Below are positions 21,169-56,640 of a stretch of DNA of 64,000 nt, one piece after another (position 1 is the stretch's first letter; every line of letters starts with the position of its first letter). Source of the stretch: Ectocarpus siliculosus. Taxonomy: Eukaryota > Sar > Phaeophyceae > Ectocarpales > Ectocarpaceae. The notes beneath the pieces were generated by a model that was not told the origin of the DNA, searched no databases, and was given only the letters and a program-made list of their open reading frames with translations. A program made the translations under genes and the position numbers. The stretch covers positions 99,563 to 163,562 of the forward strand of contig FN648462.1 of NCBI GenBank assembly GCA_000310025.1, given 5' to 3'.

Positions 21169-24100
21169 ATGTCTGACTGGAAGAAATGTGAGTTGTCTAT
21201 GCCCATAGTCTATGTGTACATGGTAGGTGTGTTGACGAGGCCGCAGCACGTACTGCAGCGAGCGGCCCGATCCGTTTGCTCCCCGGCCTTCTTGTACATA
21301 CGCAAAGTATTACTTCGCAACAAAGTTCTGTATGTAGCCCTGGAACGTGTACCACGTGCCCACGGTTGTTATGCACCAGAGGGTGGTTCCGTACGAAGCG
21401 ATGTAGATTGCCGGGAGAGGGACAACGCATTCCTTGAGGCTGGGAATCATGTTTTGGATTCTCGCCTCACCAACAACCAACACAGGGCGGAAGAACGTAA
21501 TCTCCTGCTGCAACCGCTGTAGTCTAGACTACACAGGTTTAGCACCGCAGCAGTGGTTGGCTGCAATCGTTGAGTGGGATCAATCGCTACGAAGACCCTC
21601 TTAGGAATGTATACGGGTAACTAGAATTTTGCTACTATGCTTTATGTAGCAGGTTCCAAGTTGTAGGTGCCACTGCTGCTTTATGTGCAGCAGTAGGTCC
21701 CATATTGTAGGTGCCACTGCTGATAGACTATTATTGTACATCAGTAGTGGTCCCGGTATAACACCGGTCGAATAATGCGTTTCCCCGTATGATGCCGGTG
21801 AATCGTCTGGCGCAGATGGGATGTTCGAGTTGTTTCATACTCTAAATAATGTCGGCCGCTCGCAAAATGCCGGTGCGATCATTCCGATTTCACCGGCATT
21901 ACACCGGGACCACTGCTGTACGTGAATGTTGCACCCAGTGGTGTACCTATCGATTTACCGGTCGTGGTGACATATGCCTCGAATCCCCTCGAACAAACGT
22001 TGTTTGGCATGCGGCGATACAGCAATACCTCCCGAACGGCTTTTCCCTGCCGTCTTGAGGAAGTGCTCCAAACTGACAGAATCCTCCATACCTCCTGTCT
22101 CCAGCACTACTGTAGCAGCATGGTAGCAGCAAATAAGTAGTAACGGTGCCAATCGGTTGCCTCCCTCTACAGAGCGGACCATCTTGGAATATCCTGGTAG
22201 ATCTTCGAACGGCAAATATATCCCCCCAACTCGATTATTGGCGTACTTTCTCGGTGCCCAACGGGCAACGAAGAGAAAGAAACCCAGCGGTACGACAGGA
22301 AGAACATTCGTTTCACGTGATCGTGCCCTCCATCCTCGCCCAATCGACCGTGAGCTCACCCGCCCATCCACCCCCTGCCCACGCGCTCACCAACGACTAC
22401 GACTCCACGCGCAGACGACAGCTATGACGTGCCCATCGACCCCAAGCAGCAGGACAAGGCCACCATGTTCAAGCTCTACAGCTTCCGGCGCCCCCACATG
22501 CGAGCCTTCCATTTCGCGTGGTTCGGTTTCTTCATGGCCTTCGTCTCCTGGTTCGCCTTCGCCCCGCTCATGAAGGAGATCAAGGCCGACCTCGGCATGA
22601 CCAAGCTCGAGGTGTACAACGCCAACATCTCGTCCGTGTCTTCCACCGTGCTCTCGCGTTTCATCGTGGGCCCCCTCTGTGACACGTTCGGCGCGCGAAT
22701 CATCTCCAGCACCCTGCTCATCATGGGGTGTATCCCGACCGCCTTCGCCGGCCTGGTGAACAGCGCCACCGACGTGGCCATCATCCGCTTCTTCATCGGC
22801 GTGATGGGCGCCACGTTCGTGTGCACGCAGTTCTGGTCCTCGCAGATCTTCGCGAAGGAGTTCGTCGGCACGGCTAACGCCACTACCGGAGGCTGGGGAA
22901 ACCTGGGCGGCGGTGTCACTCAGGTGCGTCGGAGCAAAGAGAGAGAGAGAGGTCAAGGGGGGAGAGAGACAGGCAGAGACAAGGGACAGGAACAGAACCA
23001 AGCACACACAAGAAGCAAGTACGATCAGATCATATCTCCAGCTTCTGGGATCCAATCCTGAACAACCAAGTATGACTCAAGACCGCGTTTGAGACTTCGC
23101 TTGACCCTGAATTCATCCCTTCCACCACACCTTCCCCGCCCGCCCATACCTCACAAGGCCCTGCTCAACGCAATATCGCGAAGTCTTGCCACCTTGCCTA
23201 CCCGAGGCCCGGTTGCCATCCTTCCCACTAATCATCCCTCCTTTCCCTTCCGTGATCTACGCACGCAGATCTTCATGGTGGCGATCTGGAACGCCTTCAA
23301 GACCAGCTACGACAGCGAGACGGCGTGGCGCCTCTCGTTCCTCGTGCCGGCGGCCATCGTGTTCTGCGTTGCCGTGGGCCAGCTGTTCCTCGCCGATGAC
23401 AGCCCGAAGGGTAACTACAAGGAGCTCGAGGCGCACGGCGCCATGACTCGCAAGTCCTCCGCCGTTTCCTTCAAGAAGGTGAATGAGGCGGTTTTGGTCC
23501 CGTGCCTATTCCAGAGTTCAGTGTAGTCGAGTTTAGCTGATACATGCTATAGTGTGCCCCGTCTTGGCGCGATTGATTTGGTGGTGCGGTGACTATTCAG
23601 CATCATGCGGAACGGTCTCTCTTCCATTCTTACCCGTTGCTGCTGCCATCTACCATCTCTCACGTTTGCCCGTTCGCTTGCCCCCTTGCCCCCCCATTCA
23701 ATCGCCTCCCCATTCGCTGAGCAGGGCTACATGAACGTGAACTCATGGCTCATGTTCCTCCAGTACGCCGCCTGCTTCGGCGTCGAGCTGACCGTCAACA
23801 ACGTGGCGGCCAACTACTTCTCGGACGAGTTCGACCTGTCTACCTCCAAGGCTGGTCTCGTGGCGTCGTTGTTCGGACTCATGAACCTCTTCGCCCGCTC
23901 TCTGGGTGGCATCTGGTCCGGTGAGTACGCACGACACGCGACTGTATTGGCTGGTGCTGCTACGGTATTGGAGATGGTTGACCGCGCACCGTCCGTGTAT
24001 TGTTCGGATGTATCGATCCCGTAGAGTGCGTTCCTGACCTGTCACATACGCGAAGCGTTGCAACGGCAAGGCACCACGTGCACGTCGCTTGGAACCTCTC

Positions 24101-24718
24101 TTTTTGTGTCGATACATGGTCGAAACAGGGTGAAGTGATGCATCTTCCCTCCACCAGACAAGTCGTGTCGACCTTGAGCACTCCCTCTCACCCTCCCCCC
24201 CACGCCCTGTGCCCGCCCTGCGTCTCCCCCGGACAAATTACCCATCCCCGTGCAAAACGCCTACAACAACGACGACAGACTTCCTGTTCGCCAAGTTCGG
24301 CGGCGGCGTTACCGGCATGCGCGGACGCTTCTTCGCCCAGTGGACTGCCCTCCTTTGGGAAGGCTGCTTCCTCTTCCTCTTCACCTTCATGAACCAACTT
24401 GGTGCGGCCATCCCCGTCCTCATCCTCTTCTCCGTGGGCGTGCAAATGGCGGAGGGCACCTCGTACGGCATCGTGCCGTACATCGTGCCGGACGCGACGG
24501 GCGCGGTGTCGGGCATCGTGGGCGCCGGCGGTAACTTCGGCGCGGTGATGTGGGGTCTGATCTTCCGGTTCGCGGGCAGGAGCGAGAGGGCGGTGTTCCG
24601 AATCATCGCGGCGTTCGTGGTGGGCCTATCATGCCTTACGCCTCTCCTCAAGATCCGCGGGTACGCCACGTGCTTCGCCGCCCCCCAGGGAGAGCCGGAC
24701 TCCATCGCGGACATCTAA
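21169..24718 (+). CDS. NRT2: NRT2-type nitrate transporter, copy A, 5 exons
   Basis: A membrane carrier of the nitrate/nitrite porter branch of the major facilitator superfamily, expected to import nitrate at the plasma membrane. Exons: 21169-21187 (19 bases), 22415-22923, 23269-23478, 23725-23920 and 24279-24718, giving 457 residues. Exon 1 codes MSDWKK and the first base of Tyr7. About 12 hydrophobic helices are expected. The TM2 Arg is R88 (VLSRF), followed by GPLCDTFGAR (92-101). The first nitrate signature is GGWGNLGGG (165-173). The TM8 Arg is R304 (NLFARS). The second signature is AGGNFGA (394-400). The central loop and C-terminus are short, unlike plant NRT2. Donors are GTGAGT, GTGCGT, GTGAAT and GTGAGT. 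The block 22204-24718 is nearly identical to copy B, introns included. Transport substrate is family inference. Confidence 0.95.
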
Positions 24719-27700
24719 GTTTCGCTCTTCTTGCTTGATGGCCGCATGCACACTAGCACAAGCCCATAGCACTTGTGCAACTCATAGACCAACCATCTTG
24801 GGCCGCGTTTCGGACCAACGACAAGACTCTTCGGGGTCGGGCATGCCAGGGTGGGGCGTAGGGGTCGGAGGCACATGATTGTCGTCGTGTCTGATCGTTG
24901 ATCGCGTGTTGCCCGCGATTGTCCCGCAGCTCAGATTGCTTGTGTGTCCCATTTTTTGGCTTCTTGCCGGGCGGGTTTAGGCCTGGATGTGCGTTCTTGT
25001 TGCAAAGCGCCCTAGCAAATAATGCGCATGCTTGGGTGGTACAACTGCCTTGTTTGAGTTCTCAACGGCGGTGTGTACTACTCTCGCGCTTTAATTAGGG
25101 CGCGGTATTGTTCAGAACAGGCTGCGGAGAACACCAAACACCTCTCTAATGTCGTGCTGTGAATCTTGCCGGCGTTTCGTCAATTGTTGGTTTATTACGA
25201 GGGTACATTGTGGCACGCTGCCAGCCCCTCTCGTCGCCTTGTTAGGATACCCTACCACGCGTTGTTGGCGGGATGGGCTGGGTCCCTGACTAATTAGAGT
25301 TGCAGCAAGAAGCGTGCGCGCCGCGTGCATGTTCTGCGGTTCCATCAAGCACATGTACATATTTTTATGCAGCAGATTGTACTCAAGATGGTAGGTTTGC
25401 GAGCCTCGGTGTAGGGCGCAAGGTCAATTTAGCTGTGTTGCTTCCTTGTCAGTTTGACGGAGGGCGTCAGCAAGAACATGTATCAACTTGCTGATGTCCG
25501 GTCCCTTATTGCCAAAATCAGCAGGTGTCTGAGACGGGGTGGTACATGGTACACAAGAAGGAGAACCTGTAAGACACATTGCTTTTTTTCGTCGGGACGT
25601 GGGGCGAGGTTTTCCCAACATCATAGTCAGAGATGCAACAGCACTCGGACTTTTTTATGTACTATTAACGTTAGCACCGCGCTGAGCGAGGGGTTGAGCA
25701 CTTGGATATAATCATACCCAGTCCTCCCTACACTTGTGATTCTCGGATCTTTGTTTGTTCTTGTCGAACGCTGTCAGTCATGTCGTTCTTCATGGTCGTG
25801 GATTTGTAGGAAGCTCTTTTCAAAGGTTGCGCGGAATGTTCGGTCTTGCGGCTTTTTGGCGCAACGTGGGAATGTTCTCCTGTCCTCTTGCAAGGTTCGG
25901 GAATAAAGGTCTCTTCTTCTTAGGATGGAAGATGATGGGATAGGGGATAGGGAAGTCATTCCATGTACCACACATACGTATTACGTCTTGTTTTTGTTCG
26001 CGTCAGTCTGCGTGCATGTAGCATCGATGGATCTCGCCGATTGAACCGTTCCTTGCGGATTGCCACGTAGAACTGAACGCGAAATATATTCAAGTTTTGT
26101 CCACTCGCGGTGATCATTTCCCTTGGTTCGGAGGTAGGTGCCAACACCCCAGGGTCTGGGGGCTTTGGGAAATAGGTGGTTTCTCCAGGGGGTGCAGGAG
26201 GGCAGAGGAAACGATGCAGGATGCAATCCTCACCCCGTTTTCCCCGGGCAGAAGAAGGGGAATATTCCACTGACCGTACACTGCAAAAACGGAAACAAAC
26301 CAATCAATGTGATTAAACTGTTGTTGAGAAATCCTGCGCTCGCAACGAGGCTTGGATTTTTCGCCACCGGCTGAGCCCCGAACCTCGTCGTCGAATTGTG
26401 GTCCAGATTTTTTTTGTCACACATAACAAACACGGTGTTTGTCACGGGCCACAAAATATGGGTTTTCTCCCGAGATGGTTCCATTTGAAACCGAGAACAC
26501 CGTTCGTTGAGTTGAAACCAAAAATACCATCGAGAAACCCGATCGTCTCCCGGCAAGTTTTGCCCTGGAGAGAGAGGTAAAATTTATTTTGGGAGTATGT
26601 GGAGACACACACCCGTTCGGGTTCCGGTTATTACAAGCATTCTTCCCAAGCAACCAAGAACTTCAAGGGTTGTAATGAGATCCCTTCCTGAAGAGTTAAT
26701 CACCTTTCTGCTGTGTGGAATATTGTCCGACCACAGATAGATAGATGCAGGTTGTTGTTGATTTCCTTTGTTCTCTCTCTTGATTATTAATAATGCTGTG
26801 ACGTTCCAACGCAACCCAAGCCAACGCACACATATCTCTAGTACACACGATCAAAACAAACCCGATCGCACGTGTACACACACACGGAACCAGCACAGAA
26901 CAGAAGGGCACATACATACATAATACATGCCTCGGCAGAAAGCCCGAATCTTGCACAATTACGTCGCATCACAGCAGCATATGATAATAATGCCAAATAA
27001 CCATTCATTGTCAAGCACGATCGATCACATGCATGTAAGTACCTCCTAATAACACAACAGGCAGGGGGGATCCCCTTCAAAAGGGTGCAAACTTCCCAAC
27101 GTCTGTCGGGGCCGACTCCCTATTTTCACAAGTATTACAAAAATATCCGAAGAAAAAGGAACCTTCAAAGTCCAGCTCCGTCCGGAGAACATGAACATTT
27201 TGCACGTACATCTATTAGGTGTAGTTTTTCTTGTGGTACATAGTAGGTAGGGTAGGCAAGGGTATACGCCAAAATAAATATATTCCGGACCCCCCCTCCA
27301 ACCCCTCCCGGAGAGCAGTTCCGATTTCGGTTTAATAAAGGATTTAGTATAGGGGGCTTCGTTCACGAGAAGGTAAGTCATGACCCCCTCTACTGCGAGG
27401 GCTTTCTTTACACGGTGCCCCGCTCGCAATTATATAGAAATTAGAGTGTCCCTTTGCCCTCCCACCACCCCCCCCCTCCCCCCCCGCGCGCGGCCGGCCT
27501 CCGATTTCGAGGCAAAACCGCCACCACCGTCCTGCCCGTAAAAAAGTGTCCAGCTTTCCGTCCCCAAACCCTGGGATATAAAGGCGTGCATACGGCACTA
27601 CCTACCTTAGGAGAGGCTGCTTACAAAGTCGTTTTTTTTTTTTTCCTTTGCACGATGCCATATTAGCATATTAGTATCTTGCCTGGGGTGGTAATTACTG

Positions 27701-28319
27701 CATGCACGCGTTTAGATTGAAACAACACAGTACAGGTGGCCAGTGGGCACCGTTGTACGGGGGCGTTGAGTAACCTCCGGCCAACGAGTGGTTATTACAT
27801 GGGATAACGTAGGGGGCTTACAGGCCGAGCCGTCATAACGTGCCCGGGTTGTGAAGAAAGCGGTCATCATGCGAGGGTGGGTGTGAAGAGGGGGAGGGAG
27901 ATAAAAAAGGGTCGAGGAAAAAAAAAATGTGTGTGGGTTTTCACCTTCTTCCACCCTGCGGTCGCGGTGCGCGAGACTTCGCCCGTCCGTGTCTACTAGC
28001 GCGCAGAATCTTGTCAAGGAAGAAAACACGAGTACGGGGGGATTCGAACCGGCGTATTACTAATATCAGAGTGTACATTCTACCGCTACGCAACGTGTTG
28101 TGACATGGCGTGTGCGACATGCACGTAAACCTAATGAATTTATAGTGGGGGGCTGAAAAAATTGTGTGGCACAACACCGCCCACGACGCGGCCGATAAGC
28201 GCACACTTTGCCGTCCCCCCCACCCAAAAGCAGAAACTCCGAATATTGTCGTCTTCCACTGCCAATCGTTTAATGGGAAGTTTTTGGTCAGTTAAGTTTT
28301 ATGTTCCACAACAACAACA
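24719..28319. other. Intergenic DNA between NRT2-A and the TIR element, no gene seen
   Basis: Relatively AT-rich in its second half. Open frames are short and show no family motif. One decayed tRNA-like sequence is at 28033-28102 on the minus strand. I see no further structure I can name. Confidence 0.5.
28033..28102 (-). other. Decayed tRNA-like sequence
   Basis: On the minus strand it has a box A-like TAGCGGTAGAAT and a box B GGTTCGAATCC at tRNA-like spacing. The acceptor and T stems do not pair, so I treat it as a tRNA relic or SINE head and not a gene. Confidence 0.4.
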
Positions 28320-28950
28320 TACCGTAAACGTCGGAGTTTTCCCCCGGGGGAGAGGGGATCGTTTTTTTCTGAAACCAACCCCCCCGGGGGGAAATTGACG
28401 TACCGGGGGGGGTTAGTTTTTTTTGTTCCAACGCTACCCCGAACAGACCCCCCCCCTCGGGGAGTTGTGCAAAATAATGATGGTCTACACACCAAACACA
28501 CAGAGAGTGGCGAACTGAGATGGATAAGGTTTACGAGCAAGCGTTCAACAAACAGAGGGAGGAGGAACGTATGATGAGCAACGAAGGCGAAGAGAAAAAA
28601 TACTGCAAGGAGAACAGCAGCAGAGGGAGTTTGTCTCGTCCCGCGAGTAATTCCAAGAAAAGGAAGGGCCCACCTTCCAGTGACAAACGGTACACCTAAA
28701 TCTCGCTCGAAGCGCACATCTGCAACAATATTTTCCGTCCCATATCGTGCTTTTCGTGCTCCGCGATGCAACAAAATCGACTCAGAAAATTAGAGAAATA
28801 CATCGCCCCGGGGGGGGACCCGTGGGAAAACTGGTACCCCGGGGGGGAATTGAAATACCCGGGGGGATATTTTCTTTTTTGTTCGAAAACGATCTACCCC
28901 GGGGCCAAATCAAAGAAACCATGCTTCCAGGCCGAAAAGGTAGTGGGGGG

Positions 28951-32686: not shown

Positions 32687-35600
32687 TTAGATGTCCGCGA
32701 TGGAGTCCGGCTCTCCCTGGGGGGCGGCGAAGCACGTGGCGTACCCGCGGATCTTGAGGAGAGGCGTAAGGCATGATAGGCCCACCACGAACGCCGCGAT
32801 GATTCGGAACACCGCCCTCTCGCTCCTGCCCGCGAACCGGAAGATCAGACCCCACATCACCGCGCCGAAGTTACCGCCGGCGCCCACGATGCCCGACACC
32901 GCGCCCGTCGCGTCCGGCACGATGTACGGCACGATGCCGTACGAGGTGCCCTCCGCCATCTGCACGCCCACGGAGAAGAGGATGAGGACGGGGATGGCCG
33001 CACCAAGTTGGTTCATGAAGGTGAAGAGGAAGAGGAAGCAGCCTTCCCAAAGGAGGGCGGACCACTGGGCGAAGAAGCGTCCCCGCATGCCGGTAACGCC
33101 GCCGCCGAACTTGGCGAACAGGAAGTCTGTCGTCGTTGTTGTAGGCGTTTTGCACGGGGATGGGTAATTTGTCCGGGGGAGACGCAGAGCGGGCACGGGG
33201 CGTGGGGGGGAGGGTGAGAGGGAGTGCTCAAGGTCGACACGACTTGTCTGGTGGAGGGAAGATGCATCACTTCACCCTGTTTCGACCATGTATCGACACA
33301 AAAAGAGAGGTTCCAAGCGACATGCACGTGGTGCCTTGCCGTTGCAACGCTTCGCGTATGTGTCAGGTCAGGAACGCACTCTACGGGATCGATACATCCG
33401 AACAAGACACGGACGGTGTGCGGTCAACCATCTCCAATACCGTAGCAGCACCGGCCAATACAGTCGCGTGTCGTGCGTACTCACCGGACCAGATGCCACC
33501 CAGAGAGCGGGCGAAGAGGTTCATGAGTCCGAACAACGACGCCACGAGACCAGCCTTGGAGGTAGACAGGTCGAACTCGTCCGAGAAGTAGTTGGCCGCC
33601 ACGTTGTTGACCGTCAGCTCGACGCCGAAGCAGGCGGCGTACTGGAGGAACATGAGCCATGAGTTCACGTTCATGTAGCCCTGCTCAGCGAATGGGGAGG
33701 CGATTGAATGGGGGGGCAAGGGGGCAAGCGAACGGTCAAACGTGAGAGATGGTAGATGGCAGCAGCAACGGGTAAGAATGGAAGAGAGACCGTTCCGCAT
33801 GATGCTGAATAGTCACCGCACCACCAAATCAATCGCGCCAAGACGGGGCACACTATAGCATGTATCAGCTAAACTCGACTACACTGAACTCTGGAATAGG
33901 CACGGGACCAAAACCGCCTCATTCACCTTCTTGAAGGAAACGGCGGAGGACTTGCGAGTCATGGCGCCGTGCGCCTCGAGCTCCTTGTAGTTACCCTTCG
34001 GGCTGTCATCGGCGAGGAACAGCTGGCCCACGGCAACGCAGAATACGATGGCCGCCGGCACGAGGAACGAGAGGCGCCACGCCGTCTCGCTGTCGTAGCT
34101 GGTCTTGAAGGCGTTCCAGATCGCCACCATGAAGATCTGCGTGCGTAGATCACGGAAGGGAAAGGAGGGATGATTAGTGGGAAGGATGGCAACCGGGCCT
34201 CGGGTAGGCAAGGTGGCAAGACTTCGCGATATTGCGTTGAGCAGGGCCTTGTGAGGTATGGGCGGGCGGGGAAGGTGTGGTGGAAGGGATGCATTCAGGG
34301 TCAAGCGAAGTCTCAAACGCGGTCTTGAGTCATACTTGGTTGTTCAGGATTGGATCCCAGAAGCTGGAGATATGATCTGATCGTACTTGCTTCTTGTGTG
34401 TGCTTGGTTCTGTTCCTGTCCCTTGTCTCTGCCTGTCTCTCTCCCCCCTTGGCCTCTCTCTCTCTCTTTGCTCCGACGCACCTGAGTGACACCGCCACCC
34501 AGGTTTCCCCAGCCTCCGGTAGTGGCGTTAGCCGTGCCGACGAACTCCTTCGCGAAGATCTGCGAGGACCAGAACTGCGTGCACACGAACGTGGCGCCCA
34601 TCACGCCGATGAAGAAGCGGATGATGGCCACGTCGGTGGCGCTGTTCACCAGGCCGGCGAAGGCGGTCGGGATACACCCCATGATGAGCAGGGTGCTGGA
34701 GATGATTCGCGCGCCGAACGTGTCACAGAGGGGGCCCACGATGAAACGCGAGAGCACGGTGGAAGACACGGACGAGATGTTGGCGTTGTACACCTCGAGC
34801 TTGGTCATGCCGAGGTCGGCCTTGATCTCCTTCATGAGCGGGGCGAAGGCGAACCAGGAGACGAAGGCCATGAAGAAGCCGAACCACGCGAAATGGAAGG
34901 CTCGCATGTGGGGGCGCCGGAAGCTGTAGAGCTTGAACATGGTGGCCTTGTCCTGCTGCTTGGGGTCGATGGGCACGTCATAGCTGTCGTCTGCGCGTGG
35001 AGTCGTAGTCGTTGGTGAGCGCGTGGGCAGGGGGTGGATGGGCGGGTGAGCTCACGGTCGATTGGGCGAGGATGGAGGGCACGATCACGTGAAACGAATG
35101 TTCTTCCTGTCGTACCGCTGGGTTTCTTTCTCTTCGTTGCCCGTTGGGCACCGAGAAAGTACGCCAATAATCGAGTTGGGGGGATATATTTGCCGTTCGA
35201 ACTTCGAGCGAGAAGTGACAACCTGCAGCGTCTGGCTCCGTCGATTTCCCGATTTGGGTTGGGTTATTATGTACGTGATGTTTCAAAAAGGCGAGTCAAC
35301 CTCCATTAGATTTGTTGAGGTCTTGTGCCTTGACGAAACATTTCAACACCAACGTTCTCCTACCTAGACTCCACATTAACCAGTCCCTCGTTTTCACGTC
35401 TAATATTCGTGAAGCGTGCGGTTAGCGCCGTTCGCGATGCTGTTGTCACCCAGATCTTTTTGTTCTTGTTTTTTGTCTTCACTTCAAATCAGCGCACTAA
35501 AATAAATAGTGCCGTTCACTCCAACCCGTGGTCACACAGAAGAGCCCCTCTCTCCCCTCTCGTCCTGCGGTACTTTGCCTTCGATGTTTAATGCGAGAAG

Positions 35601-35905
35601 AGTTCAGCACTCTCTTCCCTCTGTGTACACACGAACTAGCGCTATCCACTGGGCCAGGAGCGGGAAGCGAGAGAAAAACTCAATTTGCGAGAAAAGCTCG
35701 CTTACGCCGGGATTCAAAACCCTTGACCTGACCTCTGGAAGATTTCCAGAATACCAACTAGACCACCGGGGCGAGCGGATTCCCCGCCCACTAGACTAAG
35801 GCATCCAGTCTAGACTACATCTCTCCACGTGAGCCCCGACAGTATCTAGGTTGCTGCAGTAGTATCCGTGGTATCGTTGAGCTCACATTTCTTCCAGTCC
35901 GACAT
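32687..35905 (-). CDS. NRT2: NRT2-type nitrate transporter, copy B, 5 exons
   Basis: Minus-strand exons: 35905-35887 (19 bases, MSDWKK plus one base), 34990-34482, 34136-33927, 33680-33485 and 33126-32687, giving 457 residues. It is near-identical to copy A; the one protein difference I noted is T334S in exon 5. Both signatures and both helix arginines (R88, R304) are intact. The near-identity covers exons 2-5 and introns 2-4 (32687-35201) and stops at the TAA. The 3' flank, outer intron 1, exon 1 surroundings and promoter differ from A. Intron 1 (34991-35886) contains SINE S2. The donor of exon 1 is GTGAGC. It should be functional on sequence grounds. Confidence 0.95.
35457..35775 (-). mobile_element. 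tRNA-derived SINE, copy S2
   Basis: Full-length minus-strand copy of the S1 family inside intron 1 of NRT2-B. The head has GCCCCGGTGGTCTAGTTGG with box B decayed to GGTTTTGAATCC. The second box A reads TGGCCCAGTGGATAGCGC. The tail has TTGAAGTGAAGAC and A-rich sequence (T-rich on plus at 35457-35475). More diverged than S3. Confidence 0.85.
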
Positions 35906-38900: not shown

Positions 38901-38973
38901 AAAGTCGTGTAGGGGGGCAAAAAAAAACACTCAGGCAAGGCCAGACGGTTCACTACTACTAACAGGCGGTTTT

Positions 38974-39013: not shown

Positions 39014-39260
39014 GCTGAACGGGGTAAAAAATGCAAGTGCCTTGCGTGGCAAAACTCACAGATCCAAGGAGTCTTCAGAATGTCCAGGGTCTCAGACGTT
39101 GTGTTTTTCGGTGTTACCACTCTGTCCAAGAGTATCCAGTGTCCCAGGAAAAAGACCCATCACAAGTTTTACGTTTAGATTTACAACCCCGAATTTCATT
39201 ATTTTGTATTCCCTGGTCACAATTTGCGACGATTTCGATCGATTGCAAAGGTGAAGCCTA

Positions 39261-39484
39261 CCGTAGGTTGCATAGGACACCACACCCTCCCCCTGGACCG
39301 ATTTTCAAAGTTCGATTACTCCACGACCAAGAGGGTGCCGAAGGCAAACGGTACGTATTCGAAAAGCTCTCGATGGGACGGTTCCAACTCCACCATTTTT
39401 CCGGCGCCGTCACTTCTTTTCCTTGCCGAGTAATCAAGCTTTCGAAATCGGCCCAGGGGGTGTGATATCTTACGCAACATACGG
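39261..39484. mobile_element. CCGTA MITE, copy 1
   Basis: The inverted ends extend through CCGTAGGTTGCATAGGACAC and CCCTGGACCGATTTTCAAAG on the left, and their complements on the right (GGCCCAGGGGGTGTGATATC...TACGG). The left TA is at 39259-39260; the right TA has decayed. The interior matches copy 2 loosely (ACTCCACGACCAAGAGG, AAGCTCTCGATGGGACGG). Confidence 0.8.
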
Positions 39485-41067: not shown

Positions 41068-44000
41068 TTAGATCTCCGCGATGGAGTCTGGCTCTCCCTT
41101 GGGCGCACCGAAGCACGAGGCGTACCCGCGGATCTTCATCAACGGCGTCGTGCACGAGAGGGCAACCACGATCGCCGCGATGATTCGGAACACCGCCCTC
41201 TCGCTGGTGGGGCCGAACCGGAAGATCAGACCCCACATCACCGCGCCGAAGTTACCGCCGGCGCCCACGATGCCCGACACCGCGCCCGTCGCGTCGGGCA
41301 CGATGTACGGCACGATGCCGTATGAGGTACCCTCGGACATCTGCACGCCCACGGAGAAGAGGATGAGGATGGGGATGGCCGCACCAACCAAGAGTGTTCA
41401 TGTAGGTGAAGAGGAAGAGGAAGCAGCCTTCCCACACGAGGGCAGTCCACTGGGCGAAGAAGCGTCCGCGCATGCCGGTCACGCCCGCGCCGAACTTGCG
41501 GTAGAGGAAGTCTGCCAAAAATGATAAAACATTGGGTGCGGGAAAGAGGTCAGCGAAGGCGTTGGGTGAGTTGGAGGCTTTCCAACAAGACAATGCGTTG
41601 GAAAATGATACGTGCTTCAGCAAGCAAAAACAAAAATATAACTCGTGTCGTGCGTCAGGAAACCGGCATATCGCACTGGCACATGATATCTACCGGTAAA
41701 CACAATAGTCTACGTGTCGTCGAAAGTGCTTCGGGCACGTGAACCCACTTTGGGCGCGTAAAACCACCGCATTACAACAAAAAACATGGCCGGACTACGA
41801 TACTCAAAGCTGGGTTGCCTGGCAAACGTTCTTGTGGGCTTCCAAGACCTACATGCGGACGCCCCAAGCGAAGAGCGACATCCTTTTCCAGGGAAATACA
41901 CGTATTTTCCGCTTGTTTGCAACGGCCAGATCTGCGGCCCACCCAGAACGGAAAGCACTCGATGAGAAACACGAACAAGCGCAATAGACAGCGGAGCACC
42001 AGAGGCACATATACCTGCCTCGGCCGAAAAGACTCACCGGACCAGATGCCGCCGACCGACCGAGCGAAGAGGTTCATGAGCCCAAACAATGACGCCACCA
42101 TACCCGCCTTGGAGGTCGACAGACCGAACTCGTCAGAGAAGTAGTTCGCCGCAGTGTTGTTGACGGTCAGCTCGACGCCGAAGCAGGCGGCGTACTGGGC
42201 GAACATGATCCATGAGTTCACGTTCGAGTAGCCCTGCTCGGTGGACATCAATTCACAGGGCGATAAAGCACATGGTTGCGTACGTCAGGCAGGGGAGTGA
42301 GAGGATCTGCTTAAGCAAAAGGGACGGTGCGAATGAGTTGCATCATGCACTTGTATTTACGTCCATGTGACTCGCATTTTTATCACACGAGGTTATTACC
42401 GTACGATCGGCCCCCATAGACGACGTATGTATACATAGCACGGCCTGATGAAACCACCTTCCCGTCCTCTGCGAATCAAACGTACTGAGAACTGTCAGGT
42501 CACCTTCTTGAAGGAAACGGCGGAGGACTTGCGGGTCATGGCACCGTGCGCCTCGAGCTCCTTGTAGTTACCCTTGGGGCAGTCGTCGGCGAGGAACACC
42601 TGACCGATGGCGACGCAGAACACGATGGCCGCCGGCACGAGGAACGAGAGACGCCACGCGGTCTCGCTATCGTAGCTGGTCTTGAAGGCGTTCCAGACTC
42701 CCACCATGAAGATCTGTGAAAATGTACGGCAGGCGAGGAGATAAGAGGGCGTCGCAAAGCGAGAGGGAAACGTCATGACAGGAGGTACTGAAAGCTTACC
42801 TTGTACGGCACCAGAGAGCAAGCATTGAGATCGTGCTTCTGTCGACAGGTGAGTGGTGGTTGTTGTGTATCTGGAGCTTCCAGCGAAGGGAGAGTTGCTG
42901 CTGCCATGCACTCATGACCGAGGGTGATGGGAGTTGACTATCGGGTCAACAAACGAGCAAAATCCTACTTCATACGTACAACTACAGGTTGTTGTGAAAG
43001 TGCGCACTTGATTCTACAGAATTACCGTATATGACACAAGATAACACACCCCCTGGGACCAATATCCAAAGCTCGACTACGCCACGACGAAGAGGATGCA
43101 TAAATGAAACAACACATTTTCGGAAAGCTCTCGACGAGAAGCTTCAACGCCACTGTTTTCGGCGCTGAGAAAATGACATTTGAAAATCGGTCCAGGGGGT
43201 GTGTTGTCTCATGTCCTTTACGGTACGTTCATCCAACTCTTTGCGACAACCAAGGGACTGCTGTTGTTCCCGCTCACGACGCACCTGAGTGACACCGCCG
43301 CCCAGGTTTCCCCAGCCTGCGCTGGTGGCGTTAGCCGTGCCGACGAACTCCTTCGCGAACACCTGCGACGTCCAGTACTGGGTGCACACGAACGTGGCGC
43401 CCATCACGCCGATGAAGAAGCGGATGATGGCCACGTCGGTGGCGCTGTTCACCAGGCCGGCGAAAAAGGTCGGGATGCAGCCCATGAGCAGCAGGGTGCT
43501 GGAGGTGATGCGCGCGCCGAAGGTGTCGCAGAGGGGGCCCACGATGAAACGCTAGAGAATAGTGGAGGACACGGACGAGATGTTGGCGTTGTACACCTCG
43601 TTCTTGGTCATGCCGAGGTCGGCCTTGATCTCCTTCATGAGGGGGGCGAAGGCGAACCAGGAGACGAAGGCCATGAAGAAACCGAACCACGCGAAGTGAA
43701 AGGCTCGCATGTGGGGGCGCCGGAAGCTGTAGAGCTTGAGGGTGGTCGCCTTGTCCTGCTGCTTGGGGTCGATGGGCACGTCATAGCTGTCGTCTTTTTT
43801 GTGTTGCGGGGGTGGATGGTGGTAAGGGAGACCACGGGGCGGAGACGGGGCGGGGTGGTTTACTCAGATTTGGCGTCCAAGTGTGTCGCATGTCAGGTCT
43901 GATACATGGTTTTGAAGCGGGAGAGCGAATCCGCCAATTGATGACGCCAGGATATTCCAAGATCGTAGGCAATGTACTGCTGTGGAGGGAGGCAACCGAT

Positions 44001-44543
44001 TGGCACCGTTAAGATTTCTATCATGACTGACTGCGGTCTTCTACCATGCTGCTACAGCAGTAGACTAGTAGTGCTGCCGATAGGCGGTGTGAAGGATTCC
44101 GTCAGTTCGGAGCACTTTGTCAAGAAGGCAGGCAAAAACCGTTCGCCAGGTGCTGCTGTGTCGCCGCATGCCAAAAAACGTTTTGTTGGGGATTCCGAAG
44201 CATATATTGTCGTATGGTACCTTCTTCCGCCGTGTTGGTGGTTGGCGAGGCGAGAATCGTATGGCAAAATTCATTCCCAGCCTTGCGAAGGGCTCTGTCC
44301 CTCCCGGTAATTCTACGTCGATCGCTTCGGATGCATACATACCCTAGAGAAACGTATGCTTAGGTAGTAGCCCTTTACTTCGAAGTTTTACACGTTGCAT
44401 AGAAGGCTCGTGGAGCAAACATTTATTTGTTGATCGGGGGCCGCTCGCTGCAGTACGTACTGCCCTGCCTCATCAACACACCATGTACGTGCACATGTAT
44501 GTAGTCTAGACTAGGCAAACTCACATTTCTTCCATTCAGACAT
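41068..44543 (-). pseudogene. NRT2: NRT2-type nitrate transporter, copy C, broken
   Basis: Minus-strand exons: 44543-44525 (19 bases, MSEWKK), 43793-43285, 42713-42504, 42233-42038 and 41511-41068. The plan equals copies A, B, D and E, and sequence is closest to D. Two breaks are visible. Codon 87 is TAG (43552-43554) where D has TCG, just before the conserved TM2 Arg. Exon 5 is 444 bases instead of 440 because of a duplicated 4-base TTGG near 41384-41391 (after the MNTLG stretch), which shifts the frame. Splice sites are all intact, so decay is recent. Intron 2 contains MITE copy 2. Assembly error in two independent places seems unlikely but cannot be excluded without reads. Confidence 0.88.
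43025..43223. mobile_element. CCGTA MITE, copy 2, in NRT2-C intron 2
   Basis: A 199-base element with inverted ends CCGTATATGACACAAGATAA / complement of CCGTAAAGGACATGAGACAA, continuing through CACACCCCCTGG. TA is duplicated at 43023-43024 and 43224-43225. The homologous intron of copy D reads GATGAACGTAATTCTGTAG with a single TA at 47801-47802: the empty site. This fixes both the element borders and the TA target preference. It has no coding capacity. Confidence 0.93.
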
Positions 44544-45504
44544 CTTGAGGGCAGCTCTGGTAGAGGAAGGAAAGGGAGAAGAGGAGAGCGAGGGTTAGTG
44601 AGGGTGGTAGGGGGCGGGTGAGGTTCCTCAGTGGGGTGGGCCGCTGCCACTGGCATGACGCCTTTATTACTGTAGGAAGATCTTCCAGCACATACATACT
44701 CCATATCCATGTATGAAGAGCGTCAGAATCCTAGCGGCGTGGTACCCACATGCATCATGCATCATGCATCCTCGCAACCCGCATTTTTTTTTTTTTGTCT
44801 TCACTTCAAATCAGCGCTCACAGCGCTAGTAGTGCCATTTATTCCAATCCGCGGTCACACAGAAGAGCCCCTCTCTAGCCTCCCCTCCTGTGGTACTTTG
44901 CCTTCGATTTTTAATGCGAGAAGAGTTCAGCACTCTCTTCCCTCTGTGTACACACGAACTAGCGCTATCCACTAGGCCAGAAACGGAAGCGAGAGAAAAA
45001 CTCACTCTGCAAGAAAAGCTCGCTTACGCCGGGATTCGAACCCCTGACCTGACCTCTATCTAGAAGGTTTCGAGGATACCAACTAGACCACCGGAGCCCG
45101 CATACAACACATTCGGAAAAACTGCCGTTGCGAGACTGTCACACACTAGGAAAAAATCAAGTAGTGACGTTATGCCGTATGACGTTTTCTTCGTGACTGC
45201 TGACCTGCTGCTGACCGGAAACATCCACAAAAGTGTTCTAAAAAAAAAAGAAAGAATTTTTTCACGCTCGCAAGCTTCTAGTGACGTCACTGTTGACCGG
45301 TTGTCAGCCAATCAACATACCGGATTCCTCCAAGTTCTATCAAAGTTCGATAAAGCTTCCTTCCTGCGGCTGAAGCGCTTCGCCCGCACTTCACTCCACC
45401 CTCCTCCCCCTCCTCGAAACCGGCGCGTTCACGAGCCGCACTCATCACACAACCAATATTCCGCGTACCTGACCTTCTCGTCCAAGAGCCTACCTCACAG
45501 CATC
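44544..45504. promoter_or_regulatory. Shared upstream region of divergent NRT2-C and NRT2-D
   Basis: The first exons of C (minus) and D (plus) face away from each other across 961 bases, so both promoters must lie here. SINE S3 occupies 44784-45097. The 300 bases before the D start are pyrimidine-rich. I cannot define specific factor sites. Confidence 0.55.
44784..45097 (-). mobile_element. tRNA-derived SINE, copy S3
   Basis: Minus-strand copy with CTCCGGTGGTCTAGTTGG, box B GGGGTTCGAATCCCGGCG, the second box A TGGCCTAGTGGATAGCGC and an A tail (T-run at 44784-44795). ATGCGGG appears both next to the tail and before the head, a candidate target-site duplication. However, S1 has related sequence before its head, so the true 5' end may lie slightly further out. 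Confidence 0.87.
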
Positions 45505-48500
45505 ATGTCGGACTGGAAGAAATGTGAGAAGATCGAGAGAACACGCAGCAGGCACACATCAGTGGCGCTTTGTCCCTGCGTTTTCCCACGCCCATGCCCA
45601 TTGCAACTGGGCCCATGTGGCGTACTCACTAGATCGGTCGCTGGATCCTACCTCTCGGCTTGCCACCTTGTTCGGATTCTCTTCTGTCAGAGTTTAGATG
45701 AATGGTAGTCTTTTTTTAGTCCAGTGGAGAAGGATATATATATGTAGTCCACATGGCGACGGTAGCAGCGAGTGGCCTACCAGCGTGATGGGTTAGTGGA
45801 GGCAAAGGAAAGCGTATGCACCATCAAGACAACACAAATGTACGTTGTAACACACTAGGGTACCTGGATTGACACGAAAGAAGATACGCATCATGTGGGT
45901 GGTTTTGTGCCATCTTCTAGTAATCTCGCAGCAAGAGGGTTCTCACACACGCTCAGCTCGTTTTTTTTGTATAATCACGTACATATAATAGTGTGGCTGT
46001 GTCCTCGGTGCTTCTACCCTGTGGGCTCTCTCGTTCCATACCCTCTGTGGATCGCTCTCAGACCTCGGAACATACACCCTGCTGTCCCACCCACAACATG
46101 CGCATGAAACATTTCGATTTAAAATAATCTAGACACCGGCTACCGGTGCCGCTTTTTGGCGCAGACCGCGTGTCTTTCCGGTCATGACAGACTGAAAGTT
46201 CGCTGCGTGCAGCGATGGGCTGCAGTAGTGCAGCAGTAGCAAGCAAGCCCGGCACCACGTAGTACGCAGCAGTGTATCCTGACGTCTATCGTACGTACAG
46301 CAGGTGGTCCGAACAAAGTGGCTTGCTTGTTGTGTGGAATTGTTTCTCGATCTTGCATACGCAGATGAGATAATGCCCGCCGATGCCAATATTTAATGTT
46401 TTATTCATTTACTTTTTGATGTATTCTTCCGCGGATTGCACATGTACCTGTAGTACAAAGATATGACTGTTGCCACTGCCACATGATCCGCCACGAAACC
46501 CGGCCGAGATGATCCTCGTTTTGGGAACAATACCCTGGCGTAGCTCAACAACAGCTGCAGTCAGCAAGCGTTTTCGCTTTTTGTTTAGATCAGGGTCATT
46601 TGTCAGTAGCACCGTCACCACCGCGTTGACAATTTGAATTTTTTGAATTGTTTGGCTTTGCGGTCTGTAATGACACTCAAATATTTTTTTGGGTCTGTTT
46701 TGGAAATCTAGTTATTTCCCAAGCTCGGTTCTAGCTCGGTTCTCATTCTTGCCGTGGTGTAAAACCAAACATGTTACATCTTCCGTAGTTTTTGGGCGAG
46801 ACAAATATTATTCATGGAGCACACGTTCAAGTGGTGAAGGCCTAGAAATTTTTGCCTCCTGCGGAAGGCCGAGCTTGGTACTTCCGAGGTAACGTGATGA
46901 CTTGACCTCCTGCCATTTTTTTTGTGGCACAATTAAAAATTCTCCGTAGATCAGCAGTCGTTTTCTCATCCGAACCGATGCACAGCCTGTCCATGATTCC
47001 CGCGAGAACTTTAAACGGCGGGCGCCTCACTCTCGAAATATCACATGCAGTGAAATTCGCAGGCAACATTTTGGGGACAACCAAATTTGTCTTGCCTGCC
47101 CCCATCATTCCTAACAACACACAAAAATATTCTCAAGACGGCATTGTTGCGTCACTGATCACTGCCCGCGTCCCGCCACCCACCGCCCGAACTCTTGTTT
47201 TTCAAAATGCAATGCAGATGACACCTATGACGTGCCCATCGACCCCAAGCAGCAGGACAAGGCGACCACCCTCAAGCTCTACAGCTTCCGGCGCCCCCAC
47301 ATGCGAGCCTTTCACTTCGCGTGGTTCGGTTTCTTCATGGCCTTCGTCTCCTGGTTCGCCTTCGCCCCCCTCATGAAGGAGATCAAGGCCGACCTCGGCA
47401 TGACCAAGAACGAGGTGTACAACGCCAACATCTCGTCCGTGTCCTCCACTATTCTCTCGCGTTTCGTCGTGGGCCCCCTCTGCGACACCTTCGGCGCGCG
47501 CATCACCTCCAGCACCCTGCTGCTCATGGGCTGCATCCCGACCTTTTTCGCCGGCCTGGTGAACAGCGCCACCGACGTGGCCATCATCCGCTTCTTCATC
47601 GGCGTGATGGGCGCCACGTTCGTGTGCACCCAGTACTGGACGTCGCAGGTGTTCGCGAAGGAGTTCGTCGGCACGGCTAACGCCACCAGCGCAGGCTGGG
47701 GAAACCTGGGCGGCGGTGTCACGCAGGTGCGTCGTGAGCGGGAACAACAGCAGTCCCTTGGTTGTCGTAGAGGGTTGTAGTTTGATTAATTTGATGAACG
47801 TAATTCTGTAGAATCAAGTGCACGCTCACAACCAACTTGGTGTCATTGGATTTTGCTCGTTTGTTGACCCGATAGTCAACTCCCATCACCCTCGGTCATG
47901 AGTGCATGGCAGCAGCAACTCTCCTTTCGCTGGAAGCTCCAGATACGCAACAACCACCACTCACCTGTCGACAGAAGCACGATCTCAATGCTTGCTCTCT
48001 GGTGCCGTACAAGGTACGCTTTCAGTACCTCCTGTCATGACGGTTCCCTCTCGCTTTGCGACGCCCTCTTATCTCCTCGCCTGCCGTACATTTTCACAGA
48101 TCTTCATGGTGGGAATCTGGAACGCCTTCAAGACCAGCTACGATAGCGAGACCGCGTGGCGTCTCTCGTTCCTCGTGCCGGCGGCCATCGTGTTCTGCGT
48201 CGCCATCGGTCAGGTGTTCCTCGCCGACGACTGCCCGAAGGGTAACTACAAGGAGCTCGAGGCGCACGGTGCCATGACCCGCAAGTCCTCCGCCGTTTCC
48301 TTCAAGAAGGTGACCTGACAGTTCTCAGTACGTTTGATTCGCAGAGGACGGGAAGGTGGTTTCATCAGGCCGTGCTATGTATACAAACGTTGTCTATGGG
48401 GGTCGATCGTACGGTAATAACCTCATGTGATAAACATGGGAGTCACAAGGACGTAAATTCAAGTGCATGACATATATCATTCGCACCGTCCCTTTTGCTG

Positions 48501-49760
48501 AAGCAGATCCTCTCACTCCCCGCCTGACGTACGCAACCATGTGCTTTATCGCCCTGTGCATGATGTCCACCGATCAGGGCTACTCGAACGTGAACTCATG
48601 GATCATGTTCGCCCAGTACGCCGCCTGCTTCGGCGTTGAGCTGACCGTCAACAACGTGGCGGCCAACTACTTCTCTGACGAGTTCGGTCTGTCGACCTCC
48701 AAGGCGGGTATGGTGGCGTCGTTGTTTGGGCTCATGAACCTCTTCGCTCGGTCGGTCGGCGGCATCTGGTCCGGTGAGTCTTTTCGGCCGAGGCAGGTAC
48801 ATGTGCCTCTGGTGCACCCCTGTCTGTTGCGCTTGTTCGTGTTTCTCATCGAGTGCTTTCCGTTCTGGGTGGGCCGCAGATCTGGCCGTTGCAAACAAGC
48901 GGAAAATACGTGTATTTCCCTGGAAAAGGATGTCGCTCTTCGCTTGGGGCGTCCGTATGTAGGTCTTGGAAGCCCACAAGAACGTTTGTCAGGCAACCCA
49001 GCTTTGGATATTGTAGTCCGGCTTTTGTTTTTTGTTGCAATGCGGTGGTTTCACGCGCCCAGAAGTGGGTTCACGTGCCCAAAGCACTTTCGACGACACA
49101 TAGATTATTGTTTTCACCGGTAGATATCATGTGCCAGTGCGGGATGCCGGTTCGCTGACCCACGACACGAGTTCCGTATTTTTTCTGTAATTATATCTGC
49201 TTGACCAAGCACGTTTGCTTGTGTCACTTCCAACGTATTTTCTTGTTGGAAACAAATCCAATTGGCCCAACGCCTTCGCTGACCTCTTTCCCGCACCCAA
49301 TTTCTTATCGTGTGTGGCAGACTTCCTCTACCGCAAGTTCGGCGCGGGTGTTACCGGCATGCGGGGACGCTTCTTCGCCCAGTGGTCCGCCCTCGTGTGG
49401 GAAGGCTGCTTCCTCTTCCTCTTCACCTACATGAACACCCTTGGTGCGGCCATCCCCATCCTCATCCTCTTCTCCGTGGGCGTGCAGATGTCCGAGGGAA
49501 CCTCGTACGGCATCGTGCCGTACATCGTCCCGGACGCGACGGGCGCGGTGTCGGGCATCGTGGGCGCCGGCGGCAACTTCGGCGCAGTGATGTGGGGTCT
49601 CATCTTCCGGTTCGGCCCCACCAGCGAGAGGTCGGTGTTCCGAATTATCGCGGCGATCGTGGTTGCCCTCTCGTGCACTACGCCGTTGATGAAGATCCGC
49701 GGGTACGCCTCGTGCTTCGGTGCGCCCAAGGGAGAGCCAGACTCCATCGCGGAGATCTAA
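45505..49760 (+). CDS. NRT2: NRT2-type nitrate transporter, copy D, 5 exons
   Basis: Exons: 45505-45523 (19 bases), 47218-47726, 48100-48309, 48578-48773 and 49321-49760, giving 457 residues. It starts MSDWKKYDTYDVPIDPK. Both nitrate signatures (GWGNLGGG, AGGNFGA), R88 and R304 are present. It forms a subfamily with copy C, marked by TTLKLYSF, TKNEVYN, CIPTFFAG, QYWTSQVF and the C-terminal FGPTSERSVF. Introns 2 to 4 align with those of C. Intron 2 keeps the TA empty site of the MITE found in C. Intron 1 is 1694 bases. It is the only intact member of its subfamily in the window. Confidence 0.95.
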
Positions 49761-51866: not shown

Positions 51867-54800
51867 ATGTCGGACTGGAAGAAATGTGAGAGGAAGATGT
51901 GGCAGCGATAAAAATAAGTTTGCTTTTGCAGAAAGGTCACCTACAGCAGCAGCAGCAGCAACGTCATCGTTTTTTGTTCTACTGCTGTACAATGTACAGC
52001 TTCCCCGTGACTTTTCCCGCTCTCTGCTGTGGTCGTCTGATCTTGAAATGCTGTCCCTTGTGGGGCGTACCCCGGAACTGCGCGCACAGTGAAACCCGTC
52101 CCACCCCACCGTAGTCGGAGAGGCACAACTTTTCTGGTGCATCACAACTTGTGCATCATCATCATCTCTCCAAAAAAGTTGTTCCTGCCTCTGCCTAGAA
52201 ATTGTTGGGGGAAGATCGGATCCGAACTCCTGTGTTGCAAGCCCTGCTTGTGAAACGTTGTTGGCGAAACAGCATTTTGGTGTAGACCGCTCTGGCCTCT
52301 TGGTGGGCTAGCGTGTTCTCGCGCCACATATTGGTGACGACGTGGTGATAGCCGCTCTGCGGTACTGACTGTAGCTTTTTTGCCACGTACCTCCTGCTCT
52401 CAGTACGCATGTATATGTATGCATACATACATGTAGTCTACACATGTATATGCATACATGTAGTCTACACCGTACAGCAGTAGTAGTCTATTGTAAATAT
52501 ATACCGTGTGCAATAGGGGTATCATTAACGACCAGTAAGAAGGGCGTATACAAACAAACACAGCGTCGTCTGCGGTGAACTTGGGGCTGGTTCTCATGCT
52601 TAGGACGATGCCCCCCCACACGCCTTGGATGTATCGGAGGGCATACCGGTGTGTTTGAGCCACTGCTGTTGTAGGAGGGGTGTTTTTGTAAGGTTATGTG
52701 AAAGGAGGGACGCGACTTGCCGTAGGGGGGCTGCCACCTGTGCAAAGAAGGATATAATACCCGACAATATTAATTATAAGAATATAATAATGTGTTTGAT
52801 TTAATTGCTTGTTTTGGGGTTTGGGGAGTACATATTAACGAAGAGCCAAAAAATCAAAATCCAAATGGGCACAAAATCAAAATCAAAATGCGTTGCGTGG
52901 AAAACTGAAAAAAGAGGGTCGTGTAGACTATGTTAAAGAAGATAGGAGACAGATGAGACACGTTTCCAACTTTGCACATACATGGAGGCAAGAACATTTT
53001 GGCCGGCGCCCTAAGCGGCCTACCGAGCTTCGTATTATGTACTGGTGTGCAAGACTGTATGCATTCACAACAATAGAGTGCCGTGACGTTCGCGTCGTGA
53101 TCTACAACTGGTTTCCTAGTGTGCGTGTCGATGTCATCAAAACGAGGAGCGTGTGGCATCAGACGTCGTTGGTCGAGCGGCAATTAATTCAAGAAAGGCT
53201 TGAGAAAGGCTTGATCAACAGCAAACGAGTGCTGTGTTTTTTTTTTGTGACTCCCAAATGCATTTGTGGATACGGTCAAATTGATACGTATGGTTGCGCA
53301 TGGATTGCGACTACTGTACAACAGTTGCGCCGTGTTTCCCCATGCTCTGTGCCCAAGCTGCCGGCCCGTCTCTGCAGTTAAAAAAAGCGGGGCGAGCAGT
53401 CTGCCGTTGTTTGCGGTGATGACTACAATAGGTACTCTGTTGTGCACATCATCTCTTCTCTATGTCATGTGTGTATCGAGTAGGAGAAGTTCCGTCGAAC
53501 TCACACAAGATGCACTATTATAGCGTGTACTAAAACAAGGCACTTCTTCTCTCCGAGATACTTTTTTTCCAACTGTGATCCGGGATGTGCGCGTACTTAA
53601 TTGCGCGAGAGTTTTTTTCCATTTTTGTAATATCATGTTATCTGAACATCAATCTTTGGTTACGCCTTTCGGTACAAGACTGGACGCGCCAGCCGGGGTT
53701 ACACCTAGCAGTAGGAAGTAGAATAATTTCCGCGTTCCTTGTGCGGTCCTCGCGTTGATGATTTTCGCGATAAGGATTCAGCCAGCCATTGCTTTCCCTC
53801 GTCGCGACCGTCAAGTCGAATTGTTGCGTACGCACGAATTTCGCTCTCCACGTTTGACACGTTGTGAGAAAAATCCCAGTACGTGTAAAAAACTGCAGCG
53901 GGATTCGAACCTACGTCCAGATTTCATGTCAGGTTGTGAGACTACATGAACACGCCTGTTCTTGTGTTGTGTGACCGATCTGGTATACGGGGGTTAGTGG
54001 AAGTGCCGGCAAGGCATGTGGTGCTACAGTATGTACACTTTCCATGATTCGAAGTCCACTTGTTTCCGTTGTCTTCACATTATATCGGTTCCGGTCTCAC
54101 CTCAGTACCTCCTAACATTCGTACTCCGTCCGGCTGACGCGGGCGCCCGCCTTGGGTTCGCTTGAACGTGTGTATTGCCTCGAGGAACGGCGCGGTGCGA
54201 AAACACAGAAATTTGTGACTGTTGTTCTTGTCCTTTGACAAGTAAACTTTCCTCTCCACCTTATTCTGCGAATGTTTGTTTCAAACAGACGACAGCTATG
54301 ACGTGCCCATCGACCCCAAGCAGCAGGACAAGGCCACCATGTTCAAGCTCTACAGCTTCCGGCGCCCCCACATGCGAGCCTTCCATTTCGCGTGGTTCGG
54401 TTTCTTCATGGCCTTCGTCTCCTGGTTCGCCTTCGCCCCGCTCATGAAGGAGATCAAGGCCGACCTCGGTATGACCAAGCTCGAGGTGTACAACGCCAAC
54501 ATCTCGTCCGTGTCCTCCACCGTGCTCTCGCGTTTCATCGTGGGCCCCCTCTGCGACACCTTCGGCGCGCGAATCATCTCCAGCACGCTGCTCATCATGG
54601 GGTGTATCCCGACCGCCTTCGCCGGCCTGGTGAACAGCGCCACCGACGTGGCCATCATCCGCTTCTTCATCGGCGTGATGGGCGCCACGTTCGTGTGCAC
54701 GCAGTTCTGGTCCTCGCAGATCTTCGCGAAGGAGTTCGTCGGCACGGCTAACGCCACTACCGGGGGCTGGGGAAACCTGGGCGGCGGTGTCACGCAGGTG

Positions 54801-56640
54801 CGTCGGAGAAAAGAGAGGAAGGGAGCGAGAGAACAAAGTTGTTTCCAAAGGTGGCATCTAGACAATGTCGAATAGTTAACCAAGGGACAAACGGATCTCA
54901 CTTTGTAGATACTCGGATCATCACACCTCTTGCAGTCCCCCCACCATCCCCCCCCCCATGCCACAGGTCCTACCCCCTCCCCCTCCATGGCCAAAAGGAG
55001 AACGTTACATCTAGCCCAAAAGCCCGCCGAACGTTTCACAGAATCCCATACCCGTTCTTGTGAGCTTGTTGGTTTGTCCATCAACCTCACCATCGGCACG
55101 TGTAAAGTCGTGTTTGTTTACTCCTCACAGCCCCCATTATCGTCCATCCCTCCTCGCCTCGTGTGATCTACGTAGATCTTAATGGTCGGAATCTGGAACG
55201 CCTTCAAGACTGGCTACGACAGCGAGACGGCGTGGCGTCTCTCGTTCCTCGTGCCGGCGGCCATCGTGTTCTGCGTTGCCGTGGGCCAGCTGTTCCTCGC
55301 CGATGACTGCCCGAAGGGTAACTACAAGGAGCTCGAGGCTCACGGTGCCATGACTCGCAAGTCCTCCGCCGTTTCCTTCAGAAAGGTGAATGAGGCGGTT
55401 TTGGTCCCGTGCCTATACCAGAGTTCAGTATGGTCGAGTTTGCTGGCAGAGCTGTAGTGTACCCCATCTTGGAGCGATGATTGGTGGTAGGGTGACTATT
55501 CAGCATCATGCGGAACGGTCTCTCTTGCATTCTTACCCGTTGCTGATGCTATCCATCATCTCTCACGTTTGCCCGTTCGCTTGCCCGTTCGCTTGCCCCC
55601 TTGCCTCCCCTTTCAATCGCCTCCCCATTCGCTGAGCAGGGATACCTGAACGTGAACTCATGGCTCATGTTCCTCCAGTACGCCGCCTGCTTCGGCGTTG
55701 AGCTGACCGTCAACAACGTGGCGGCCAACTACTTCTCGGACGAGTTCGACCTGTCTACCTCCAAGGCTGGTCTCGTGGCGTCGTTGTTCGGACTCATGAA
55801 CCTCTTCGCCCGCTCTCTGGGTGGCATCTGGTCCGGTGAGTACGCAAGACACGCGACTGTATTGGCCGGTGCTGCTACGGTATTGGAGATGGTTGACTGC
55901 ACACCGTCTGTGCCCTGTTCGGATGTATCGATCCCGTAGAGTGCGTTCCTGACCTGAAACATACGCGAAGCGTTGCAACGGCAAGTCACCACATGCGCAT
56001 TACTTGGAACCTCGCTTTTTGTGTCGATATTGTACATGGTCGAAACAGGGTGAAGTGGCGCATCTTCCCACCACCAGACAAGTCGTGTCCAACTTGAGCA
56101 CTCTCTTTTTCACCACTCCCCCCACGCCCCGTGCCCGCCCTGCGTCTCCCCCGGACAAATTACCCATCCCCGTGCAAAACGCCTACAACAACGACGACAG
56201 ACTTCCTGTTCGCCAAGTTCGGCGGCGGCGTTACCGGCATGCGCGGACGCTTCTTCGCCCAGTGGACTGCCCTCCTTTGGGAAGGCTGCTTCCTCTTCCT
56301 CTTCACCTTCATGAACCAACTTGGTGCGGCCATCCCCGTCCTCATCCTCTTCTCCGTGGGCGTGCAGATGGCGGAGGGCACCTCGTACGGCATCGTGCCG
56401 TACATCGTGCCGGACGCGACGGGTGCGGTGTCGGGCATCGTGGGCGCCGGCGGTAACTTCGGCGCGGTGATGTGGGGTCTGATCTTCCGGTTCGCGGGCA
56501 GGAGCGAGAGGGCGGTGTTCCGAATCATCGCGGCGTTCGTGGTGGGCCTGTCATGCCTTTCCCCTTTCCTCAAGATCCGCGGGTACGCCACGTGCTTCAC
56601 CGCTGCCCAGGGAGAGCCGGACTCGATCGCGGACATCTAA
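51867..56640 (+). CDS. NRT2: NRT2-type nitrate transporter, copy E, 5 exons
   Basis: Exons: 51867-51885 (19 bases), 54289-54797, 55176-55385, 55640-55835 and 56201-56640, giving 457 residues. Exon 2 protein equals A/B. Exon 3 carries several changes (ILMVGIWN for IFMVAIWN, FKTGYD, ADDCPKG, SFRK). Exon 4 begins GYLNV, and the C-terminus reads LSPFLKIRGYATCFTAAQ. Signatures, R88 and R304 are intact. Introns 3 and 4 still align with A, while intron 2 has largely diverged, so similarity to A/B is patchy along the gene. Intron 1 is long (2403 bases) and holds a decayed tRNA-like sequence. The exon 3 acceptor is TAG. Confidence 0.94.
53886..53945 (-). other. Decayed tRNA-like sequence in NRT2-E intron 1
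   Basis: On the minus strand it has GTAGGTTCGAATCCCGCTGC (box B) followed by a run of T, a possible Pol III terminator. Upstream arms do not fold into a clean cloverleaf, so I do not call a gene. Confidence 0.35.

Follow-up and report, generated by a model that had tools for sequence, protein, structure and literature searches.

An NRT2 nitrate transporter array in a brown alga with the signature of concerted evolution by gene conversion

Results

Organization of the NRT2 array

All coordinates are positions in the window, the whole 64-kb stretch of DNA that was analyzed. Gene models, built on conserved exon edges, placed five NRT2-type loci (A to E) within a 35-kb cluster in the order + - - + +, in agreement with the copy number and orientations given in the initial annotation. 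Exon lengths were 19, 509, 210, 196 and 440 bp across the loci, the only exception being exon 5 of C (444 bp), again as first described, and the introns of all five loci were GT-AG without exception. The initial annotation was wrong, however, in calling all five genes complete, as four (A, B, D and E) were intact and C was a pseudogene. The sole N run of the window (3264-3363) lay far outside the cluster. The loci are as follows.

21169-24718, + strand: NRT2 gene A, intact, 457 aa (gene model; TIGR00886 E 1e-92)
21169-21187, 22415-22923, 23269-23478, 23725-23920, 24279-24718, + strand: exons of gene A
35905-32687, - strand: NRT2 gene B, intact, 457 aa (gene model)
35905-35887, 34990-34482, 34136-33927, 33680-33485, 33126-32687, - strand: exons of gene B
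44543-41068, - strand: NRT2 pseudogene C (gene model, two lesions)
44544-45504, no strand: divergent promoter region of C and D, 961 bp, with a dispersed SINE-like repeat inside at 44785-45097
45505-49760, + strand: NRT2 gene D, intact, 457 aa (gene model; TIGR00886 317.7 bits)
45505-45523, 47218-47726, 48100-48309, 48578-48773, 49321-49760, + strand: exons of gene D
51867-56640, + strand: NRT2 gene E, intact, 457 aa (gene model)
51867-51885, 54289-54797, 55176-55385, 55640-55835, 56201-56640, + strand: exons of gene E

The proposed division into two subfamilies, A/B/E and C/D, was borne out by protein identities of 98-99.8% inside A/B/E and about 90% between A/B/E and C/D. The A and B proteins differed by a single residue (nd = 1).

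The copy that had been suspected of being lost was C. Codon 87 of C, in exon 2, was an in-frame TAG (43554-43552, - strand), which was also recovered by a whole-genome search, and a 4-bp TTGG duplication in exon 5 (41391-41388) shifted the frame and led to an early stop. An intact C read through an alternative frame was considered and rejected, since two independent lesions were present. Because these lesions are few and C is otherwise close to D, C appears to have left the functional set recently.

Several repeats were observed in the window. A dispersed repeat of about 310 bp was found at 12650-12970, 35463-35772 and 44785-45097, with one copy in intron 1 of B and one in the divergent promoter region of C and D, and had about 1,520 candidate places genome-wide. 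It carries a tRNA-like A-box (GGTCTAGTTGG) and B-box (GGTTCGAATCC), and on the basis of these sequences is probably a tRNA-derived SINE. Intron 1 of A contained a dispersed repeat of about 180 bp (21736-21921) with dozens of genome matches at 71-89% and partial inverted self-matches, which is perhaps a MITE. A family of repeats of about 200 bp, with 72-81% identity and in both orientations, was located at 39257-39471, 43030-43226, 59308-59497, 60604-60800 and 61850-62052; one copy lies in intron 2 of C; D lacks it, and intron 2 of D is shorter by about 200 bp. An inverted repeat (4256-4654 and 4866-5281) was 92% identical over 417 bp, with a spacer of about 210 bp. No Rfam families or tRNA genes were found in the 64-kb window.

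Family identity and genome-wide complement

The NRT2 identity proposed for the cluster genes was upheld by matches to TIGR00886, the NarK family nitrate/nitrite MFS transporter model, which A and D matched over its full length (E about 1e-92 to 1e-94). The score of D (317.7 bits) was above the curated cut-off of 311.7 bits and that of A (311.1 bits) was 0.6 bits below it, this cut-off belonging to the NCBIfam library, which was made for prokaryotic proteins. PF07690 (MFS_1), within which TIGR00886 falls, was matched by A. Two glycine motifs, GWGNLGGG (G166-WGNLGGG-173) and GAGGNFGAV (G393-AGGNFG-399), were invariant in A, D and E; we take these to be the NNP signature motifs, one in each of two transmembrane segments. 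The array genes therefore resemble the NRT2/NarK (NNP) family in both full-length match and glycine motifs. R88 and R304 are, by their plausible positions, candidates for the two substrate-binding arginines of TM2 and TM8. A PDB sequence search gave no usable match and did not find NarK by sequence.

A search of the 189-Mb assembly returned 21 NRT2 exon matches, all of them in the cluster on the 213-kb contig C75, and no NRT2 was found elsewhere. Nitrate reductase did not adjoin the array, as Mo-co dimer matches were confined to two loci on contigs C2 and C4. The NAR2 partner (PF16974) gave no match in the genome in an exon-by-exon search run without a positive control. NRT2 relatives were not found in viral contigs, nor in prokaryote genomes with search patterns that were too specific. 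A Pfam scan of ten proteins, nine of which were long intergenic or flanking reading frames, matched only NRT2. The array holds every NRT2 (NNP-family, MFS) gene found in this brown-alga genome, with proton- or sodium-coupled high-affinity nitrate uptake as its predicted function.

A chimeric first intron joins a C-type 5' end to a B-type body in gene A

In self-comparison, A and B were 99.28% identical over 2,515 bp without a gap (18 differences). This block opens inside intron 1 and closes with the final base of the stop codon; from the next base onward the two loci are unrelated. Introns 2-4 were 98-99.6% identical between A and B, and the kilobases up- and downstream were no more, or scarcely more, similar than shuffled controls in every copy pair. 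The segments concerned are the following.

22204-24718, + strand: putative conversion tract in A; 99.28% identity with B 35201-32687, gap-free
32687-35201, - strand: partner tract in B (probable donor)
21158-22197, + strand: C-like 5' module of A; covers exon 1 plus the greater part of intron 1, with its homologue in C at 44554-43947
43947-44554, - strand: counterpart in C, homologous to the 5' module of A
24322-24346, + strand: 25-bp patch, given at its position in A (CDS 978-1002); B and D share states here that set them apart from A, C and E, including Thr334Ser

The first introns were unrelated among the copies, except for A with C and the end of A with B. In intron 1 of A, homology to C stops at 22197 and near-identity to B starts at 22204, about 7 bp away. 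The alignment of this intron between A and C consisted of long blocks of about 70-80%, and positions 21972-22197 of A had no genome match other than C. B has its own exon 1. Codon 2, in exon 1, was TCT in A and C and TCG in B, D and E, and all four combinations of codon-2 type and body subfamily were present among the copies. We infer from this arrangement that A combines a 5' end of C type with a body of B type. The simplest reading is that B converted A, with B named as donor because of the chimeric intron 1 of A, a direction that depends on a single junction.

Smaller tracts and divergence between copies

Synonymous differences between C and D numbered 3 of 163 in exons 2-3 and 18 of 155 in exons 4-5 (P = 0.0005, for a pattern picked after inspection), corresponding to a synonymous divergence of 0.02 and about 0.12, respectively. 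Sites at which B and D agree against A, C and E occurred only three times in the coding alignment, all within the 25-bp patch, which crosses the two subfamilies. The probability of such clustering under random placement was about 0.0013, again for a pattern picked after inspection. A GENECONV-like permutation on the CDS gave no significant result when A/B and C/D were each taken as a whole pair, as would be anticipated for A/B, whose tract spans almost the whole CDS.

Within subfamilies, dS was roughly equal to intron divergence (for A/E, a dS of 0.075 with introns 3-4 at about 8%). Between subfamilies, dS was 0.23-0.25 although introns 2-4 could not be aligned. Given the within-subfamily agreement, the exons look younger than the introns between subfamilies.

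Light-harvesting genes of the same genome

The light-harvesting (LHC/FCP) genes form large mixed-orientation arrays on contigs C92, C232, C488 and C16 (L039-L046), in which many copies had identical domain scores. Among the eight copies read, several pairs had coding blocks that were near-identical up to the stop codon with flanks at baseline. Copies with homogenized coding regions had a dS of 0.02-0.08, as in L041/L042 (0.021) and L045/L046 (0.082), the latter two being on different contigs. Other pairs encode nearly the same protein, yet had a dS of 0.3-0.45. On these comparisons, coding-limited homogenization is a wider habit of the genome and not special to NRT2.

Two further observations were made on photosynthesis-related sequences. 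One light-harvesting protein shared about 96% identity with FCP17 from the PSI of giant kelp (PDB 9YGV; PMC13219633). A degenerate psaA/psaB-like fragment, L034 (G000:C109:105538-105705), was the only match to its family in the assembly and is likely nuclear plastid DNA.

Discussion

The comparisons made here favor, with a probability of roughly 0.8, an old NRT2 array, with four genes intact and one a pseudogene, whose copies on the two strands have evolved in concert by gene conversion. The similarity among the NRT2 copies would then not be a plain record of duplication, as conversion appears to have rewritten their bodies. A simpler account holds that A/B and C/D are young inverted duplicates for which conversion is unnecessary. 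The pairs are indeed adjacent and inverted, and their identity is high even in introns (99.3% for A/B). Young duplicates would not, however, be expected to lose all likeness beyond the stop codon and upstream of a point inside intron 1, and this account is further at odds with the separate exon 1 of B, with the single point in intron 1 of A where C-like sequence gives way to B-like, and with a C/D divergence that differs several-fold between exons. Plain recent duplication is therefore considered unlikely.

Two other explanations were judged less probable still. If the copies were merely old, purifying selection and codon bias could preserve the likeness of their exons and leave flanks and introns to drift, and the NRT2 copies do have a dN/dS of 0.04-0.26 and a GC3 of about 0.90. 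For A/B this is contradicted by the near-identity of the noncoding introns 2-4. The agreement of dS with intron divergence within subfamilies indicates that synonymous sites are not strongly frozen, and equally conserved light-harvesting genes reach the higher of the synonymous dS ranges given above. Selection as the whole explanation is thus very improbable; purifying selection and codon bias may nevertheless contribute to the similarity between subfamilies, and codon constraint could lie partly behind the low dS there. Least probable of all is an assembly artifact in which misassembly has duplicated fewer true copies. Near-identical inverted 2.5-kb blocks on a short 213-kb contig, in an assembly with main contigs of megabase length, invite this suspicion, but every copy has unique flanks with its own promoter and 3' side, the 18 differences separate A from B, the cluster is gap-free, and ordinary long reads exceed the repeats in length.

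The sequences show old paralogues with private promoters and 3' flanks, whose bodies (exons 2-5) have repeatedly been overwritten by one another. As the mechanism, ectopic conversion would act between homologous coding blocks with either orientation serving as template, and the stop codon would bound the tracts because no homology exists beyond it. The latest large event linked A with B across at least 2.5 kb, running from inside intron 1 as far as the stop codon, and smaller tracts affect exons 2-3 of C/D and the B/D patch. Gene conversion within gene families is classical, and in inverted or dispersed families it leaves sharp tract ends at the limits of homology, mosaic paralogues and homogenized coding blocks. 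Mosaic paralogues with tract ends at homology limits were seen in the NRT2 array, which bears the same signature without a difference in kind. The array is a clear example of a known process and not a new type of system.

NRT2 genes also occur in several copies, or clustered, in other algae and in plants and fungi. Clustered NRT2 is known from a fungal nitrate cluster (PMC2040219), and haptophytes have about 12-13 nitrate transporter copies (PMC11347835). The array described here differs in lacking nitrate reductase, in its mixed orientation, and in its homogenized bodies under unrelated promoters. The open-access papers searched contained no description of the array, nor any of conversion among brown-algal NRT2 genes, which is weak evidence of absence.

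The promoter regions of A and B were unrelated, and no short motif common to the five NRT2 promoters was found above chance. Since the A and B proteins are one residue apart, any functional difference between them must lie mostly in regulation or dosage. The initial annotation took the array to suggest dosage selection or subfunctionalization of nitrate uptake. The same protein under different regulation, together with dosage, would fit better than divergence of the transporter itself, and the sequences compared make dosage, or a single transporter driven by several promoters, a plausible reading. Near-identical transporters would be expressed from different promoters, and the count of live copies would set the total dosage. 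A bolder and improbable extension is that the alga may systematically hold the coding regions of multicopy genes in high demand, such as nitrate transporters and light-harvesting proteins, uniform among copies of any orientation and even on separate contigs, while promoters and UTRs are left free. This might occur partly by transcript- or cDNA-templated conversion, a possible driver suggested by tracts that stop at exon or stop-codon edges.

Nitrate is often limiting for the growth of coastal brown algae, and the whole predicted high-affinity uptake complement found in this genome lies at one locus. The clean mosaic, in which the protein is kept the same while promoters differ, would make dosage and regulatory divergence separable. 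Trees of brown-algal NRT2 and LHC paralogues would be misled by conversion unless they are built segment by segment.
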